NCBI GenBank assembly: GCA_021838945.1
Contig: JAKCCH010000012.1
Location: 1-51,922 of the forward strand
Direction: 5' to 3'
Source: Actinomycetes bacterium
GTDB taxonomy: Bacteria > Actinomycetota > Acidimicrobiia > Acidimicrobiales > Bog-793
DNA: 51,922 bases
Both the position numbers and the translations under genes were made by a program. Positions 4,176 to 22,306 of the stretch are shown here, piece by piece (the first letter of the stretch is position 1; every line of letters starts with the position of its first letter). The notes beneath the pieces are model-generated. The model saw nothing but the letters and a program-made list of their open reading frames with translations, was not told where the DNA came from and did not search any database.

Positions 4176-4391
4176 ATGGCAGCCGTGTGTGAAATCTGTG
4201 GCAAGCACCCCGGCTTCGGGATGAGCGTGTCGTTCTCGCACCGCCGCAACAAGCGGCGCTGGAACCCGAACATCCAGCGGACCCGGGCACTCGTCAACGG
4301 CACGCCGAAGCACATCCACGTGTGCACGGGTTGCCTGCGGGCCGGGAAGGTGACGAAGCCGCTGCGGCGCAAGGCCGGCCAGTCGGCCTGA
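4176..4391 (+). CDS. rpmB: 50S ribosomal protein L28
   Basis: A 71-residue L28 of the zinc-binding (C+) type. It opens [20 protein letters not shown] and keeps the [12 protein letters not shown] motif, with cysteine pairs CEIC near the start and CTGC near residue 50 as metal ligands. The ATG at 4176 is preceded by GGAG 11 nt upstream; a GTG at 4164 in the same frame would add four residues absent from L28 proteins. It is divergent from the DAK2 gene and convergent with thiL 17 nt away. The thiL / rpmB / DAK2 / recG neighbourhood is common in actinobacteria. Confidence 0.96.
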
Positions 4392-4408
4392 GCTTCAGCC
4401 GTCCGGAG

Positions 4409-5392
4409 TCACAGCGGGTGCACCCAGCCCCCGAGCGGAGCCGGCGCACCGCGTAGCGTCACGAGGGCGCCGTGCCCCTCCGGCGCTTCCCTGCACCGCC
4501 CGATCCTGATCGGCCTCTGCAGGCCTTCGCCGGCGAACGCCTCCTCGACGTCGAGGCCGGCGGGCGTGCTGAAGACGAGCTCGTAGTCCTCCCCGCCACC
4601 GAGCGCCAGCTCCTCGGTCGCGCCCGGAGCGACGGGGACATGCTCGAGGTCGATCGCGACCCCGGACTCCGCCGCAAGATGCCCAGCGTCGCGTACGAGC
4701 CCGTCGGAGACGTCGATCATCGCCGTCGCACCGAGCTCGGCGGCGAAGCGACCCTCGCGCGCACGGGCGCTCGGGCGCAGATAGGCACGGACGAGGGGAT
4801 CGCCGGTCGACACGGGTGCCGACGCCTCGGCGCGCCCTGCGCGCAACCTCGCGAGCCCCGCCGCCGAGGAGCCGAGCGCACCGGTGCACCAGACGACGTC
4901 GCCCACCGAGGCGCCCGAGCGCAGCACCGGCCCGGTGCCGGCCGTCTCGCCGAGGATGGCGACCGAGACGAAGACTGCCGGCCCGACAGAGAGGTCACCG
5001 CCGACGAGCGCGAGACCGTGATGGTCCGCCGACGCCATCAAGCCTGAGAAGAGGTCGTCGAGCGGCGTGCCAGGTGGTGCTCCGACACCGCAGACGGCGT
5101 GCGTCGGGATCCCTCCCATCGCCGCGATGTCGCTCACGTTGACTTCGAGCGACTTCCAGCCGACGTCCTCGAGCGAACCCAGCAGCAGGTCGAAGTGCAC
5201 GCCTTCGATCAGCACGTCGACGGCGAACAGGGCCTTGCCCCTCGCTGGGCGGAGGACCGCCGCGTCGTCGCCGAGATGGACCTCGCCCCTTCGCGGCACT
5301 CGGGTCGAGAGCGCGCCCCGCAGCCGCGCGAGCAACTCGTCCTCGCCGCGAGCAGCTCCAGGCAGAGGGCCCGCCGGCGGCCGGTCGGTCAT
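4409..5392 (-). CDS. thiL: Thiamine-monophosphate kinase
   Basis: A 327-residue ThiL, the last enzyme of thiamine diphosphate synthesis (TMP + ATP to TDP + ADP). The PurM-like fold motifs are present: GDDAAVL for metal binding near the N-terminus, SDIAAMGG, VGGDLSVGP, DVSDGL and GGGEDYEL near the C-terminus. The ATG at 5392 gives MTDRPPAG and a normal ThiL N-terminus; the frame extends 13 codons further without homology. No other thiamine gene and no TPP riboswitch is visible nearby. It is divergent from pckG across a 254-bp spacer. Confidence 0.93.
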   Translation of the reverse strand: MTDRPPAGPLPGAARGEDELLARLRGALSTRVPRRGEVHLGDDAAVLRPARGKALFAVDVLIEGVHFDLLLGSLEDVGWKSLEVNVSDIAAMGGIPTHAVCGVGAPPGTPLDDLFSGLMASADHHGLALVGGDLSVGPAVFVSVAILGETAGTGPVLRSGASVGDVVWCTGALGSSAAGLARLRAGRAEASAPVSTGDPLVRAYLRPSARAREGRFAAELGATAMIDVSDGLVRDAGHLAAESGVAIDLEHVPVAPGATEELALGGGEDYELVFSTPAGLDVEEAFAGEGLQRPIRIGRCREAPEGHGALVTLRGAPAPLGGWVHPL

Positions 5393-5535
5393 CGTTGCAC
5401 ACGCTCGCGCACAGGCGAAGGGTACCGGCACTCACCGCAGAGACCCCTGCTCGGGGGTCGAGCGGGCGTCCTCGCGGCACGGCACCAACCGCAGGCGTCG
5501 TGCGAGGTTGCCGAGGGTATGCGGGATAGGCGGAC

Positions 5536-5565
5536 TTGGGCACGACTCGGCGATGCGCGTACGAT
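5536..5565 (+). promoter_or_regulatory. Candidate promoter of pckG
   Basis: TTGGGC (5536-5541) and TACGAT (5560-5565) are separated by 18 bp, a fair match to a sigma-70-type promoter, 81 bp upstream of the pckG start. The rest of the 254-bp thiL/pckG spacer shows no gene and no clear riboswitch. Motif-based prediction only. Confidence 0.4.
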
Positions 5566-5646
5566 CGGGGCACGCTGTGCCGCGGCCCCCGCCACCCGCG
5601 GAGCTCGGGTCGCTGAGGACCCCGTGAGAAAGGATCGCTGCAGAAC

Positions 5647-7440
5647 ATGCCTCCGACGAGCAATGGCAAGCTTCTCGAGTGGGTCGACGAGGTCGCAGCC
5701 CTGACCCAGCCGGCACGGATCGAGTGGTGCGACGGCTCGGCGGACGAGTACGACCGGCTGACACGGCTGCTCGTTGACCAGGGCACGTTCACGAGGCTGT
5801 CGGAGGCCAAGCGCCCGAACTCGTACTGGTCCCACTCCGACGTCCGGGACGTCGCCCGCGTCGAGAGCCGGACGTACATCGCGTCGGCGAAGGAGGAGGA
5901 CGCCGGGCCGAACAACAACTGGATGGACCCGCACGAGCTGAGGGAGACGTTGAGGGGCCTGTTTCGGGGCAGCATGCGCGGGAGGACGATGTACGTCGTC
6001 CCGTTCTCGATGGGACCGCTCGGCTCGCCGATCGCGGAGATCGGCGTCGAGATCACGGACTCGGCGTACGTGGCGGTGAGCTTGCGGATCATGACCCGGA
6101 TGGGCCGTGGCGCTCTCGAGGTCCTCGGCGAGGACGGCGACTTCGTGCCCTGCCTCCACTCGGTCGGGGTGCCGCTCGAGGAGGGGCGGGCAGACGTCGC
6201 ATGGCCGTGCAACCCGGACAACCTCTACATCGCCCACTTCCCTGAGACGCGAGAGATCTGGTCCTTCGGGTCCGGCTACGGCGGCAACGCGCTGCTCGGG
6301 AAGAAGTGCTTCGCGCTGCGGATCGCGTCGGTCATGGCACGCGACGAGGGTTGGCTCGCCGAGCACATGCTGATCCTCAAGCTCACGTCGCCGGACGGCG
6401 AGGTCCGTTACGTCACGGGCGCCTTCCCCTCCGCCTGCGGCAAGACGAACCTCGCCATGCTCATCCCCACCATGCCGGGCTGGAAGGTCGAGACGATCGG
6501 CGACGACATCTGCTGGATGAAGGTCGGCCCGGACGGCATGTTGCGGGCGATCAACCCCGAGGCGGGTTTCTTCGGGGTTGCTCCCGGCACGAACATGGAG
6601 ACGAACCCGAACGCCATCCTCACCCTGGCAGCGAACTGCATCTTCACGAACACGGCGCTCACCGACGACGGCGACATCTGGTGGGAGGGGCTGACCGAGG
6701 ACCCGCCGGCTCACTGCACGAGCTGGACCGGCGAGGAGTGGACGCCTGCGAGCGACCAGCCGGCTGCGCACCCGAACTCCCGCTTCACGGTGCCCGCGAG
6801 CCAGGACCCGGCCATCGCCCCGGAGTGGGAGGACCCGTCCGGCGTCCCGATCTCCGCCATCCTCTTCGGTGGACGGCGCGCATCGGTCGTGCCGCTCGTG
6901 CACGAGAGCTACGACTGGGCGCACGGCGTGTTCATGGGGTCGATCATGGCCTCGGAGACGACCGCCGCCGCCGCCGGAGCGGTCGGGCACCTGCGGAGGG
7001 ACCCCTTTGCGATGCTCCCGTTCTGCGGCTACAACATGGCCGACTACTGGTCGCACTGGCTGTCGTTCCAGGAGCGCCTCGACGGCGACAAGCTCCCGAG
7101 GATCTTCTACGTGAACTGGTTCAGGAAGTCCTCCGACGGCCGTTGGCTCTGGCCCGGCTTCGGCGAGAACAGCCGTGTCCTCGAGTGGGTGTTCGAGCGC
7201 TGCGCCGGTCGTGGCGAGGCGGTCGAGTCGCCGATCGGGTACCTGCCGGCGAAAGGCGCCATCTCGACTGACGGCCTCGACGTCCCCCCCGAGGACATGG
7301 AGGAGGTTCTGCGGGTCGACACCGATGAGTGGCTCGCCGAGATCCCGCTCATCGAGGAGTACTACGCCCGCTTCGGTGACCGGGTGCCTCCGGCGCTCGT
7401 CAAGCAGCTCGAGGCGCTGGAGAACCGGCTCCGCGGTTGA
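5647..7440 (+). CDS. pckG: Phosphoenolpyruvate carboxykinase (GTP)
   Basis: A 597-residue GTP-type PEPCK converting oxaloacetate + GTP to PEP + CO2 + GDP, the entry step of gluconeogenesis. The kinase P-loop reads FPSACGKTN with Cys264 and Lys266, the hallmark of the GTP class. Other family blocks are visible: [39 protein letters not shown] near the guanine pocket and PFCGYNM. Length is normal (about 600). The ATG at 5647 follows AAAGGA about 13 nt upstream. It is transcribed alone and converges on the MFS gene 15 nt downstream with no obvious hairpin. It fits with the acetyl-CoA assimilation genes further on, because growth on C2 or ketone substrates needs PEPCK. Confidence 0.97.
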
Positions 7441-20954: not shown

Positions 20955-21029
20955 TGACGCTATTCGTGCGTCGGTATGACGGTTGACAGACGTCAGGCGT
21001 GATGTCATAGTGACGTCATGGAGCTGTCA
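20955..21029 (+). repeat. Phased array of TGACGTCA-like sites (candidate operator)
   Basis: Seven 8-bp elements sit at 20955, 20966, 20977, 20988, 21000, 21011 and 21022: TGACGCTA, GTGCGTCG, TGACGGTT, AGACGTCA, TGATGTCA, TGACGTCA and AGCTGTCA. Centre-to-centre spacing is 11, 11, 11, 12, 11 and 11 bp, close to one helical turn. Most contain TGACG or CGTCA; the sixth is a perfect palindrome. The array covers the -35, -10 and first codons of the ribbon-helix-helix gene. This is the geometry that tandem RHH dimers use on DNA, so autoregulation by that protein is the natural hypothesis. Confidence 0.65.
20983..21011 (+). promoter_or_regulatory. Strong promoter of the RHH-DUF4097 unit, leaderless
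   Basis: TTGACA (20983-20988, perfect -35) and CATAGT (21006-21011, -10-like) are separated by exactly 17 bp. The A of the ATG start (21018) is 7 nt after the -10 box, which is where transcription would begin, so the mRNA should be leaderless. No Shine-Dalgarno site lies between. It is the best promoter match I saw in the window. Confidence 0.7.
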
Positions 21030-21509
21030 CCCATCGTGGAGGGCATCAGCGAGGACCTGAGACGAGCCGGTGCCGTCGGCGGAGACGAGACCCGCCGAGT
21101 GGCGGAGGTGCTCGTGGCGAGCGTCGAGTCGTCCGTGCGCCTTCACCTCCTCGACGCGCTGCACGAAGCGGCCCGGGAGCTGTCCGAATCCGCCCCCGGC
21201 GCCCGCGTCGAGGTCCGGCTCGAAGGGCGGGACCCCGTCCTGTCCCTCGTGCCGGAGGCGAGCTCTGCCGGCGGAGCGGAGACGATCGACGCGGATCGCC
21301 TCGCCGAGTACATCGACGATGAGCTCGCCCGGCTCACGCTCCGCCTTCCCGAAGGCCTGAAAGGCCAGGTGGAGGGCGTGGCCGCCCGTGCCGGGGCGTC
21401 GATCAACTCCTGGATCGTCCAGGCGCTGGTTCACGCCCTCGAGCAGGGCAGCGTGCAACAGGCGAGCCGCCGGATGCCCCGGCGCATGACCGGATACGTC
21501 CGTGGTTGA
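21018..21509 (+). CDS. Ribbon-helix-helix (HicB C-terminal-like) protein
   Basis: 163 residues. The C-terminal third, LTLRLPEGLKGQVEGVAARAG followed by ASINSWIVQALVHAL (about 104-140), is a ribbon-helix-helix DNA-binding motif as in HicB or Arc-type regulators. The N-terminal 100 residues are helical, with a beta stretch ARVEVRLEGRDPVLSLV. There is no HicA-like toxin; the partner downstream is a DUF4097 protein, 14 nt away. Start ATG 21018 is at the predicted transcription start. Known families use this fold for autorepression, and the phased array over its own promoter supports that here. The pairing with DUF4097 is seen in other actinobacteria, but its role is not known to me. Confidence 0.8.
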   Translation: MELSPIVEGISEDLRRAGAVGGDETRRVAEVLVASVESSVRLHLLDALHEAARELSESAPGARVEVRLEGRDPVLSLVPEASSAGGAETIDADRLAEYIDDELARLTLRLPEGLKGQVEGVAARAGASINSWIVQALVHALEQGSVQQASRRMPRRMTGYVRG

Positions 21510-21523
21510 AAGGAGCAAGTGAG

Positions 21524-22306
21524 ATGGACTGGAACTTCGTCGCCGTCGGCCCCGTCGTTGCGACCGTCCAAGTGCCGGCCGGGCAGGTCGACCTCCATCC
21601 GGAGACCGACGGAGAGATCCGTGTGTCGCTCGAACCGGGATCGTCCTCGAACAGGGCGAGGGAGCTCGTCGCGGCGTCGCGGGTCACCTTCGAGTCCGGG
21701 CGCCTCGACGTGCACGTGCCGTCTCGCACGTTCAAGAACGCCGAGGTGCTCTGCACGGTGCGGCTCCCGGTCGGATCGTCTGTGACGGTCAGGACCGGCT
21801 CGGCGGACGTGCGCTGTGCGGGAACGGTCGGAGACTTCACCGCCACCGTGGCAAGCGGCGACGTCGACGTGGAGAACGTGGAAGGCGAGCTCTCGGTCAC
21901 GATTGCGAGCGGCGATCTTCGCTGCGAACGTGTCTCGAATCGCGCCCGCCTGCGCGGCGCCAGCGGCGACGTCACGATCGGGCAGGCGGGAGGTCCGGTC
22001 GAGCTCTCGGTCGCGAGCGGTGACATCGAGATCGGTGATGCGGCCGCCTCGGTGAAGGCAGACAACGCCTCCGGCGACGTGGAGATCCGGCGTGCCCACG
22101 AAGGCGAGATCAGGGCGAAGACCGCCTCGGGCGACATCACCGTCGGCGTGGCCTCCGGCGTAGGCGCCTACCTCGACGTGCGCAGCTTGAGCGGCGACAT
22201 GACTTGCACGCTGCCGTTCGACGAGAGCGAGCCGGGAGACGCCAAGCTGCGCATCATCTGCGAGAGCGTCAGCGGCGACGTGGCGATCGTGCCGGCCGGC
22301 ACCTGA
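21524..22306 (+). CDS. DUF4097-type beta-helix protein with SGD repeats
   Basis: 260 residues. After an N-terminal strand-rich segment, the body is a ladder of about ten short repeats centred on SGDV/SGDI (ASGDVDVENVEG, ASGDLRCERV, ASGDVTIGQAG, ASGDIEIGDA and so on), one turn per 17-20 residues, as in DUF4097 beta-solenoids often called putative adhesins. It has no signal peptide, membrane segment or lipobox, so it should stay in the cytoplasm. ATG 21524 has AAGGAG at 21510-21515, spaced 8 nt. It is in an operon with the RHH gene. A scaffold or partner that controls the RHH protein is possible but speculative. Confidence 0.85.
   Translation: MDWNFVAVGPVVATVQVPAGQVDLHPETDGEIRVSLEPGSSSNRARELVAASRVTFESGRLDVHVPSRTFKNAEVLCTVRLPVGSSVTVRTGSADVRCAGTVGDFTATVASGDVDVENVEGELSVTIASGDLRCERVSNRARLRGASGDVTIGQAGGPVELSVASGDIEIGDAAASVKADNASGDVEIRRAHEGEIRAKTASGDITVGVASGVGAYLDVRSLSGDMTCTLPFDESEPGDAKLRIICESVSGDVAIVPAGT

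Follow-up and report, generated by a model that had tools for sequence, protein, structure and literature searches.

An Array of 8-bp Palindromes at a Probably Leaderless Promoter as the Very Probable Autoregulatory Operator of an Arc-like Ribbon-Helix-Helix Repressor in Actinomycetota

Introduction

The closest described systems to the one reported here are the ribbon-helix-helix (RHH) regulators of the Arc, Mnt and AmrZ type and the methionine regulator MetJ. Dimers of Arc are placed about one turn of DNA (11 bp) apart. MetJ contacts its DNA via Lys23 and Thr25, and its met boxes abut, at a pitch of 8 bp. The residues Gln9, Asn11 and Arg13 of the Arc strand read the DNA (PMC12645479), AmrZ is an RHH protein that represses its own gene (PMC3325190), and the met box of MetJ is AGACGTCT (PMC4239095). 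In addition, an actinobacterial operon consisting of an RHH factor, a Toastrack protein, an ABC ATPase and a permease appears in the relevant part of the PSP survey (PMC11237479), where Toastrack is proposed as an assembler of sub-membrane signalling complexes; as presented in that part, the operon comes without a described operator, autoregulation or specificity code. The open-access literature searched, outside of which most subscription papers lie, contained no description of the operator or the specificity code reported below, and yielded nothing on the Asn-class site or on leaderless RHH genes.

The DNA analysed here, referred to as the window, is a stretch of 51,922 bp (52 kb) from an Actinomycetes bacterium. 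It encodes an RHH protein for which Arc of phage P22 (Pfam PF03869) is the best Pfam family, and residues Gln9, Asn11 and Arg13 of Arc align with its residues R105, T107 and R109. Unlike the regulators of the Arc/Mnt/AmrZ type, this protein carries its RHH domain at the C-terminus, behind a conserved helical domain, and each site at its promoter is a complete palindrome of 8 bp, the arrays consisting of at least three such sites and extending into the start codon. The met box and the palindrome found here, TGACGTCA, have a GACGTC core in common and both occur in tandem, although the pitch is 8 bp in the former case and 11 bp in the latter. Thr25 of MetJ is at the equivalent place, so that a pairing of Thr with the A of GAC would amount to one solution shared by both proteins. 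MetJ was absent among the Pfam and PDB sequence matches of the RHH protein.

Array and Promoter in the Window

Seven 8-bp elements, none of them assigned to a strand, start at 20955, 20966, 20977, 20988, 21000, 21011 and 21022, with spacings of 11, 11, 11, 12, 11 and 11 bp, as originally described. Three are strong and constitute the core: elements 4 (20988–20995, AGACGTCA) and 5 (21000–21007, TGATGTCA) match TGACGTCA at 7 of 8 letters, and element 6 (21011–21018) is TGACGTCA itself (8/8), the perfect palindrome that had been claimed for the sixth copy, with the A of the ATG as its last base. Element 1 (20955–20962, TGACGCTA, 6/8) is fair and accessory. The remaining ones are weak: element 2 (20966–20973, GTGCGTCG, 4/8), which may also be called decayed, element 3 (20977–20984, TGACGGTT, 5/8), which overlaps the -35 hexamer, and element 7 (21022–21029, AGCTGTCA, 5/8), which lies within codons 2–4. 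With three strong, one fair and three weak elements, the original count of seven sites was generous. The description of these elements as half-palindromes has to be replaced, as they are whole palindromes, which is what would be expected with one dimer each.

The promoter, on the plus strand, is composed of a TTGACA -35 hexamer (20983–20988), 17 bp of spacer, a CATAGT -10 hexamer (21006–21011), which bridges the 3 bp that separate element 5 from element 6, and a further 6 bp before the ATG; both hexamers and the spacer had been read correctly. The predicted transcription start is the first base of this ATG (21018, plus strand), 7 nt past the -10, in a layout that is conserved. A -10-like signal about 10–12 bp before the start codon has been used to recognise leaderless genes (PMC3160421), and here CATAGT is found at -12 to -7, likewise conserved. 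The position of the -10 and the conserved layout argue for the leaderless start that had been proposed.

Over the whole window, the maximum score of a seven-element chain at a pitch of 11–12 bp (42 out of 56) is located at 20955. Dinucleotide shuffles gave a mean of 31.8 and a maximum of 36, with none of 300 reaching 42, and chains at other pitches in the real sequence of the window scored 31–36. The three-element core scored 22 out of 24, a value that was reached in none of 100 shuffles. The array is real, and not a product of chance. A reading of the array as an RNA structure was dropped because Rfam and tRNA scans of the window returned no matches.

Conservation among Orthologues

About 200 usable promoters were obtained from 1,997 genome searches, a number that includes repeats. 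The same 8-bp palindromes, at the same pitch of 11 bp, were identified at orthologous RHH genes across Actinomycetota, where their usual positions relative to an ATG predicted to be leaderless are -29/-30, -18 and -7. The comparison of orthologous promoters, which had been suggested as a check of the motif and its phasing, revealed both to be conserved. Among 97 relatives, the six closest orthologues all present TTGA ... TGATGTCATRGTGACRTC-ATG in the same place against the start codon (6/6), and the more distant ones present an equal layout in other letters. The promoters fall into two classes, named here after a residue of the RHH strand (see below). In the Asn class, elements are present at -29 (61/68), -18 (63/68) and -7 (62/68). 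In the Thr/Ser class they are present at -30/-29 in 36 of the 61 promoters, at -18 in 42 and at -7 in 43, with 18–19 more displaced by 3 bp (18 for -18). The register of element 2 (-52/-51) is filled in 25 of these 61. An element over codons 2–4, as originally described at 21022, was found in 15 of the 61, mainly in the window's own family.

Distances between elements peak at 11, 22, 33 and 44 bp. For the Thr/Ser class, the numbers of pairs at these distances were 117, 71, 38 and 32, compared to 0.8, 0.5, 0.5 and 0.4 in letter shuffles, and the excess at 11 bp is about hundredfold. The promoter hexamers are conserved as well: among 126 promoters, 117 have the TTG of a -35 located 16–18 bp upstream of the -10, and within the -10 itself position 2 is always A (100%) and position 6 nearly always T (98%). 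The first base of the -10 is C in nearly all, because the CA of the palindrome occupies that base.

The original proposal of an RHH operator with one-turn phasing and autoregulation was supported as far as motif and phasing are concerned, both being conserved and the motif covarying with the DNA-reading residue; only three of the elements, however, are widely conserved. In a narrower version of the proposal, only two or three sites matter, bound by a pair or trio of Arc-like dimers, the upstream ones are accessory or decayed, and no extended filament of the kind originally suggested is formed. We consider this version slightly better than an even bet, and its probability overlaps that of the preferred explanation (autoregulation by the RHH protein), which does not depend on a filament. 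In its favour, the core positions are near-universal and those upstream of the -35, such as the register of element 1, differ among orthologues, and the longest in-phase chain is three in 78 of 146 promoters and four in the window. On the other hand, in-phase chains of at least four elements are present in 41 of the 146 promoters and in none of the letter shuffles, so that part of the family does keep longer arrays.

The three-element pattern, with at most two mismatches, was found in 12 of 14 genomes searched, in each of these at the RHH promoter; in one of them (G040) the array is located ahead of a small ORF that precedes the RHH gene. Only one extra match outside RHH promoters, a weak one, was found in these 14 genomes (in G010). 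The two-element dyad occurs in the window's own genome as one perfect copy, here, and one copy with one mismatch elsewhere. Since array matches sit nearly only at the RHH promoter, the operator looks dedicated to its own gene. The one-mismatch dyad (TGACGTCATGATGACAGCA, G000 C20:22655–22673, L132) was considered as a further target and rejected; it is located downstream of a KdpF-like ORF and has no clear promoter.

Some loci (L012, L037, L041, L055, L064 and L066) seemed to lack an array, yet it is present 100–250 bp further up, in several cases before a small ORF. At L012, L041, L055 and L037, the array is separated from the RHH gene by a small ORF of roughly 45–50 codons, and it therefore adjoins the start of that ORF. 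At L008 (G023:C9) the operator adjoins ATT, and not ATG, at the start of the RHH gene, which suggests that the start codon is a rare one or that the assembly is in error here.

Residue 107 and the Operator Letters

In every orthologue aligned over the strand, this reads R-x-[T/S/N/A]-x-R. The middle residue, encoded in the window by codon 107 (Thr; 21336–21338, plus strand), follows a simple rule: Thr or Ser occurs with TGAYRTCA, and Asn with TGGYRCCA. Among 129 promoters, 63 of the 64 with Thr, Ser or Ala had T at position 6 of the element, and 62 of the 65 with Asn had C there (Fisher 6e-32, a significance inflated by relatedness). Because of this inflation, three further tests were performed, based on (i) a ranking of protein columns, (ii) held-out loci and (iii) contrasts on a tree.

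As for the first, no other column of the protein had as much mutual information with the operator letter as column 107, or left as few misfits. Three loci in or beside the Asn clade (L019, L050 and L151) carry TGACGTCA and have T, T and S, respectively, at residue 107, while keeping the residues of the Asn clade at most other top-ranked columns. Two paralogues from one genome differ accordingly, L150 (Asn) being associated with TGGTGCCA and L151 (Ser) with TGACGTCA; in L151, element 2 is TGGCGCTA and the other three are TGACGTCA, and its assignment to the A-type was set by hand once and later by majority count. For the second test the rule was fixed first and then applied to newly fetched loci, where Asn proteins had G-type elements in 24 of 24 cases, and Thr/Ser proteins had A-type elements in 48 of 55, with four ties and three G-type. 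Mixed elements (TGACGCCA, TGGTGTCA) accompany some Thr/Ser proteins, and two Ala proteins (L056, L057), too few for judging the rule, adjoin TGATATCA. The rule agrees with 197 of the 202 promoters for which a clear call could be made.

For the third test, greedy disjoint contrasts were drawn on a tree of 95 rows, built with the strand masked, in which many inner branches are weakly supported. Residue 107 changes eight times on this tree, and on the best tree mostly 6–7 independent pairs changed in the same way and none in the opposite one. Strongly supported branches alone retain two independent switches, and for this reason the covariation does not reach significance on the strict phylogenetic test.

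These results bear on a different scenario, in which another, unlinked regulator binds the conserved sites and the RHH protein is merely one of its targets. We regard this as very improbable, given that, of all columns of the RHH protein encoded immediately downstream, the one in the recognition strand predicts the operator letters best, that paralogues in one genome and independent contrasts follow residue 107, and that the sites are almost confined to the RHH promoter.

RHH Protein and its Operon

The RHH gene (21018–21509, plus strand) encodes a predicted Arc-like regulator of 163 aa, as indicated by its Pfam Arc match (E = 9.9e-6; 25.8 bits, above the curated cut-off of 20.4), by the alignment and by an AlphaFold2 model (pLDDT 84). 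It is composed of a helical N-terminal domain (residues 1–80) and an RHH domain (about 103–145) with the strand R105-L-T107-L-R109, followed by predicted helices at 112–124 and 129–143; the strand itself is unformed in the monomer model. A fold search gave no significant match: the PDB fold matches of highest probability (0.82) were the RHH structures CdbA and AtaR, but with E above 1, and the N-terminal helical domain was left without a confident known fold. The latter showed a weak PDB sequence match to MSMEG_5817 (E 0.075), and the nearest solved sequences to the protein are AmrZ and Arc. Binding of DNA as a dimer via a two-stranded sheet is supported indirectly, through the covariation of residue and operator.

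A conserved tail, RRxTGY/WxxG (RRxTGYVxG), follows a variable linker at the C-terminus (window about 21465–21506) and is possibly a partner-binding motif. Of 395 genomes sampled from the Streptomyces class, 138 contain a member of the gene family, and the phage collection contained no relatives. The nearest named relatives are from an Acidimicrobiaceae and other Actinomycetes metagenome assemblies.

The gene located 14 bp downstream (21524–22306, plus strand) encodes a DUF4097 or "Toastrack" protein of 260 aa (Pfam DUF4097, E = 1.5e-19; 70.8 bits versus a cut-off of 22.9) and has its own Shine-Dalgarno sequence, AAGGAG, at 21510. The upstream neighbour in the window, an alpha/beta hydrolase, ends just upstream. 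In 101 of 105 loci, the gene downstream of the RHH gene encodes a DUF4097 homologue, and in Streptomyces these two genes are followed by an ABC ATPase and a permease. The Streptomyces loci thus match the operon as it appears in the relevant part of the PSP survey, while the copy in the window has the RHH and Toastrack genes only. From the same part of that survey (PMC11237479), a role of Toastrack in envelope stress may be supposed. At L183 (G408), an MFS transporter-like ORF (4323–6062, minus strand) overlaps or follows the DUF4097 gene, in a lineage without the ABC pair of Streptomyces, so the transporter partner may vary between lineages.

In several Streptomyces plasmid records (e.g., NZ_CP030074.1, NZ_CP108416.1) the RHH gene is annotated as "toxin-antitoxin system HicB family antitoxin". 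Together with the fact that autoregulation is common among RHH antitoxins, this could point to a HicAB-type antitoxin and to the array as a toxin-antitoxin operator, an explanation to which we give hardly any weight. The Pfam HicB score (19.3 bits) is below the cut-off of 21, the partner is the DUF4097 gene in nearly all loci, with the ABC genes behind it in Streptomyces, and no HicA-type neighbour was seen in the annotated Streptomyces neighbourhoods. Given the low profile score and the lack of a HicA-type partner there, the name "HicB antitoxin" is probably misleading. That the repeats arose by chance, or as a by-product of promoter and start-codon constraints, can be dismissed despite the overlap of the -35, -10 and ATG with the elements (TTGACA, CATAGT, TCATG), in view of the shuffle tests, of an 11-bp periodicity that extends past the promoter hexamers, and of the fact that a change of residue 107 is accompanied by a change in the class of the letters, with the promoter unchanged.

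Proposed Mechanism

The array is very probably the autoregulatory operator of the Arc-like RHH repressor encoded at 21018–21509, the site at which the gene switches itself off, because orthologous promoters throughout Actinomycetota retain it and its letters vary together with one amino acid predicted to contact DNA. We propose that the RHH protein binds the array physically, represses the promoter and may do so cooperatively. One dimer would occupy each 8-bp palindrome and reach into the major groove with a two-stranded sheet, to which each chain contributes R105-x-T107-x-R109, and successive dimers, 11 bp apart, would share one side of the DNA. The dimers at the three core elements would cover the spacer between -35 and -10, the -10 and the ATG, and would therefore block RNA polymerase. 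This would repress the leaderless RHH gene together with the DUF4097 (Toastrack) gene and, in Streptomyces, the ABC transporter pair too. The middle strand residue would set the specificity, Thr or Ser with A:T at positions 3/6 and Asn with G:C. The inducing signal may be perceived by the helical domain at the N-terminus, or by way of the Toastrack partner at the membrane.

If correct, this explanation would turn a large and mostly uncharacterised actinobacterial family, often labelled as antitoxin, into a defined repressor–operator system whose site, target operon and specificity residue are predicted. DNA recognition by RHH proteins and the cooperativity of arrays can be tested directly on about two hundred naturally occurring protein–operator pairs, in which a single residue does the switching, and the operator may serve as a handle on the signal answered by the Toastrack/ABC operon.

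Second Array in Streptomycetaceae

The window does not contain a second array at a pitch of 10 bp. Such an array was identified in 49 Streptomycetaceae promoters (group f83), in which further elements, spaced at a pitch of 10 bp and not 11, occupy the region from -100 to -260. These promoters contain 94 pairs at 10 bp, compared to 1.6 in shuffled sequences, 67 at 20 bp and 40 at 30 bp. This second array may be an auxiliary or nucleation operator. A wider picture can be drawn tentatively, and we consider it somewhat less likely than not: a phylum-wide family of self-repressing RHH proteins with a natural one-residue code for the third base (Thr/Ser for A:T, Asn for G:C) and extended arrays on one face of the DNA, in which the 10-bp array of the Streptomycetaceae would serve the 11-bp array at the promoter as a site of nucleation or looping. 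At L124, L108, L113, L110, L142 and other Streptomycetaceae loci, the second array is TGGYRCCA-like, keeps strictly to the 10-bp pitch and is located at -100 to -260 from the RHH ATG, and at L124 it consists of seven elements in a row.
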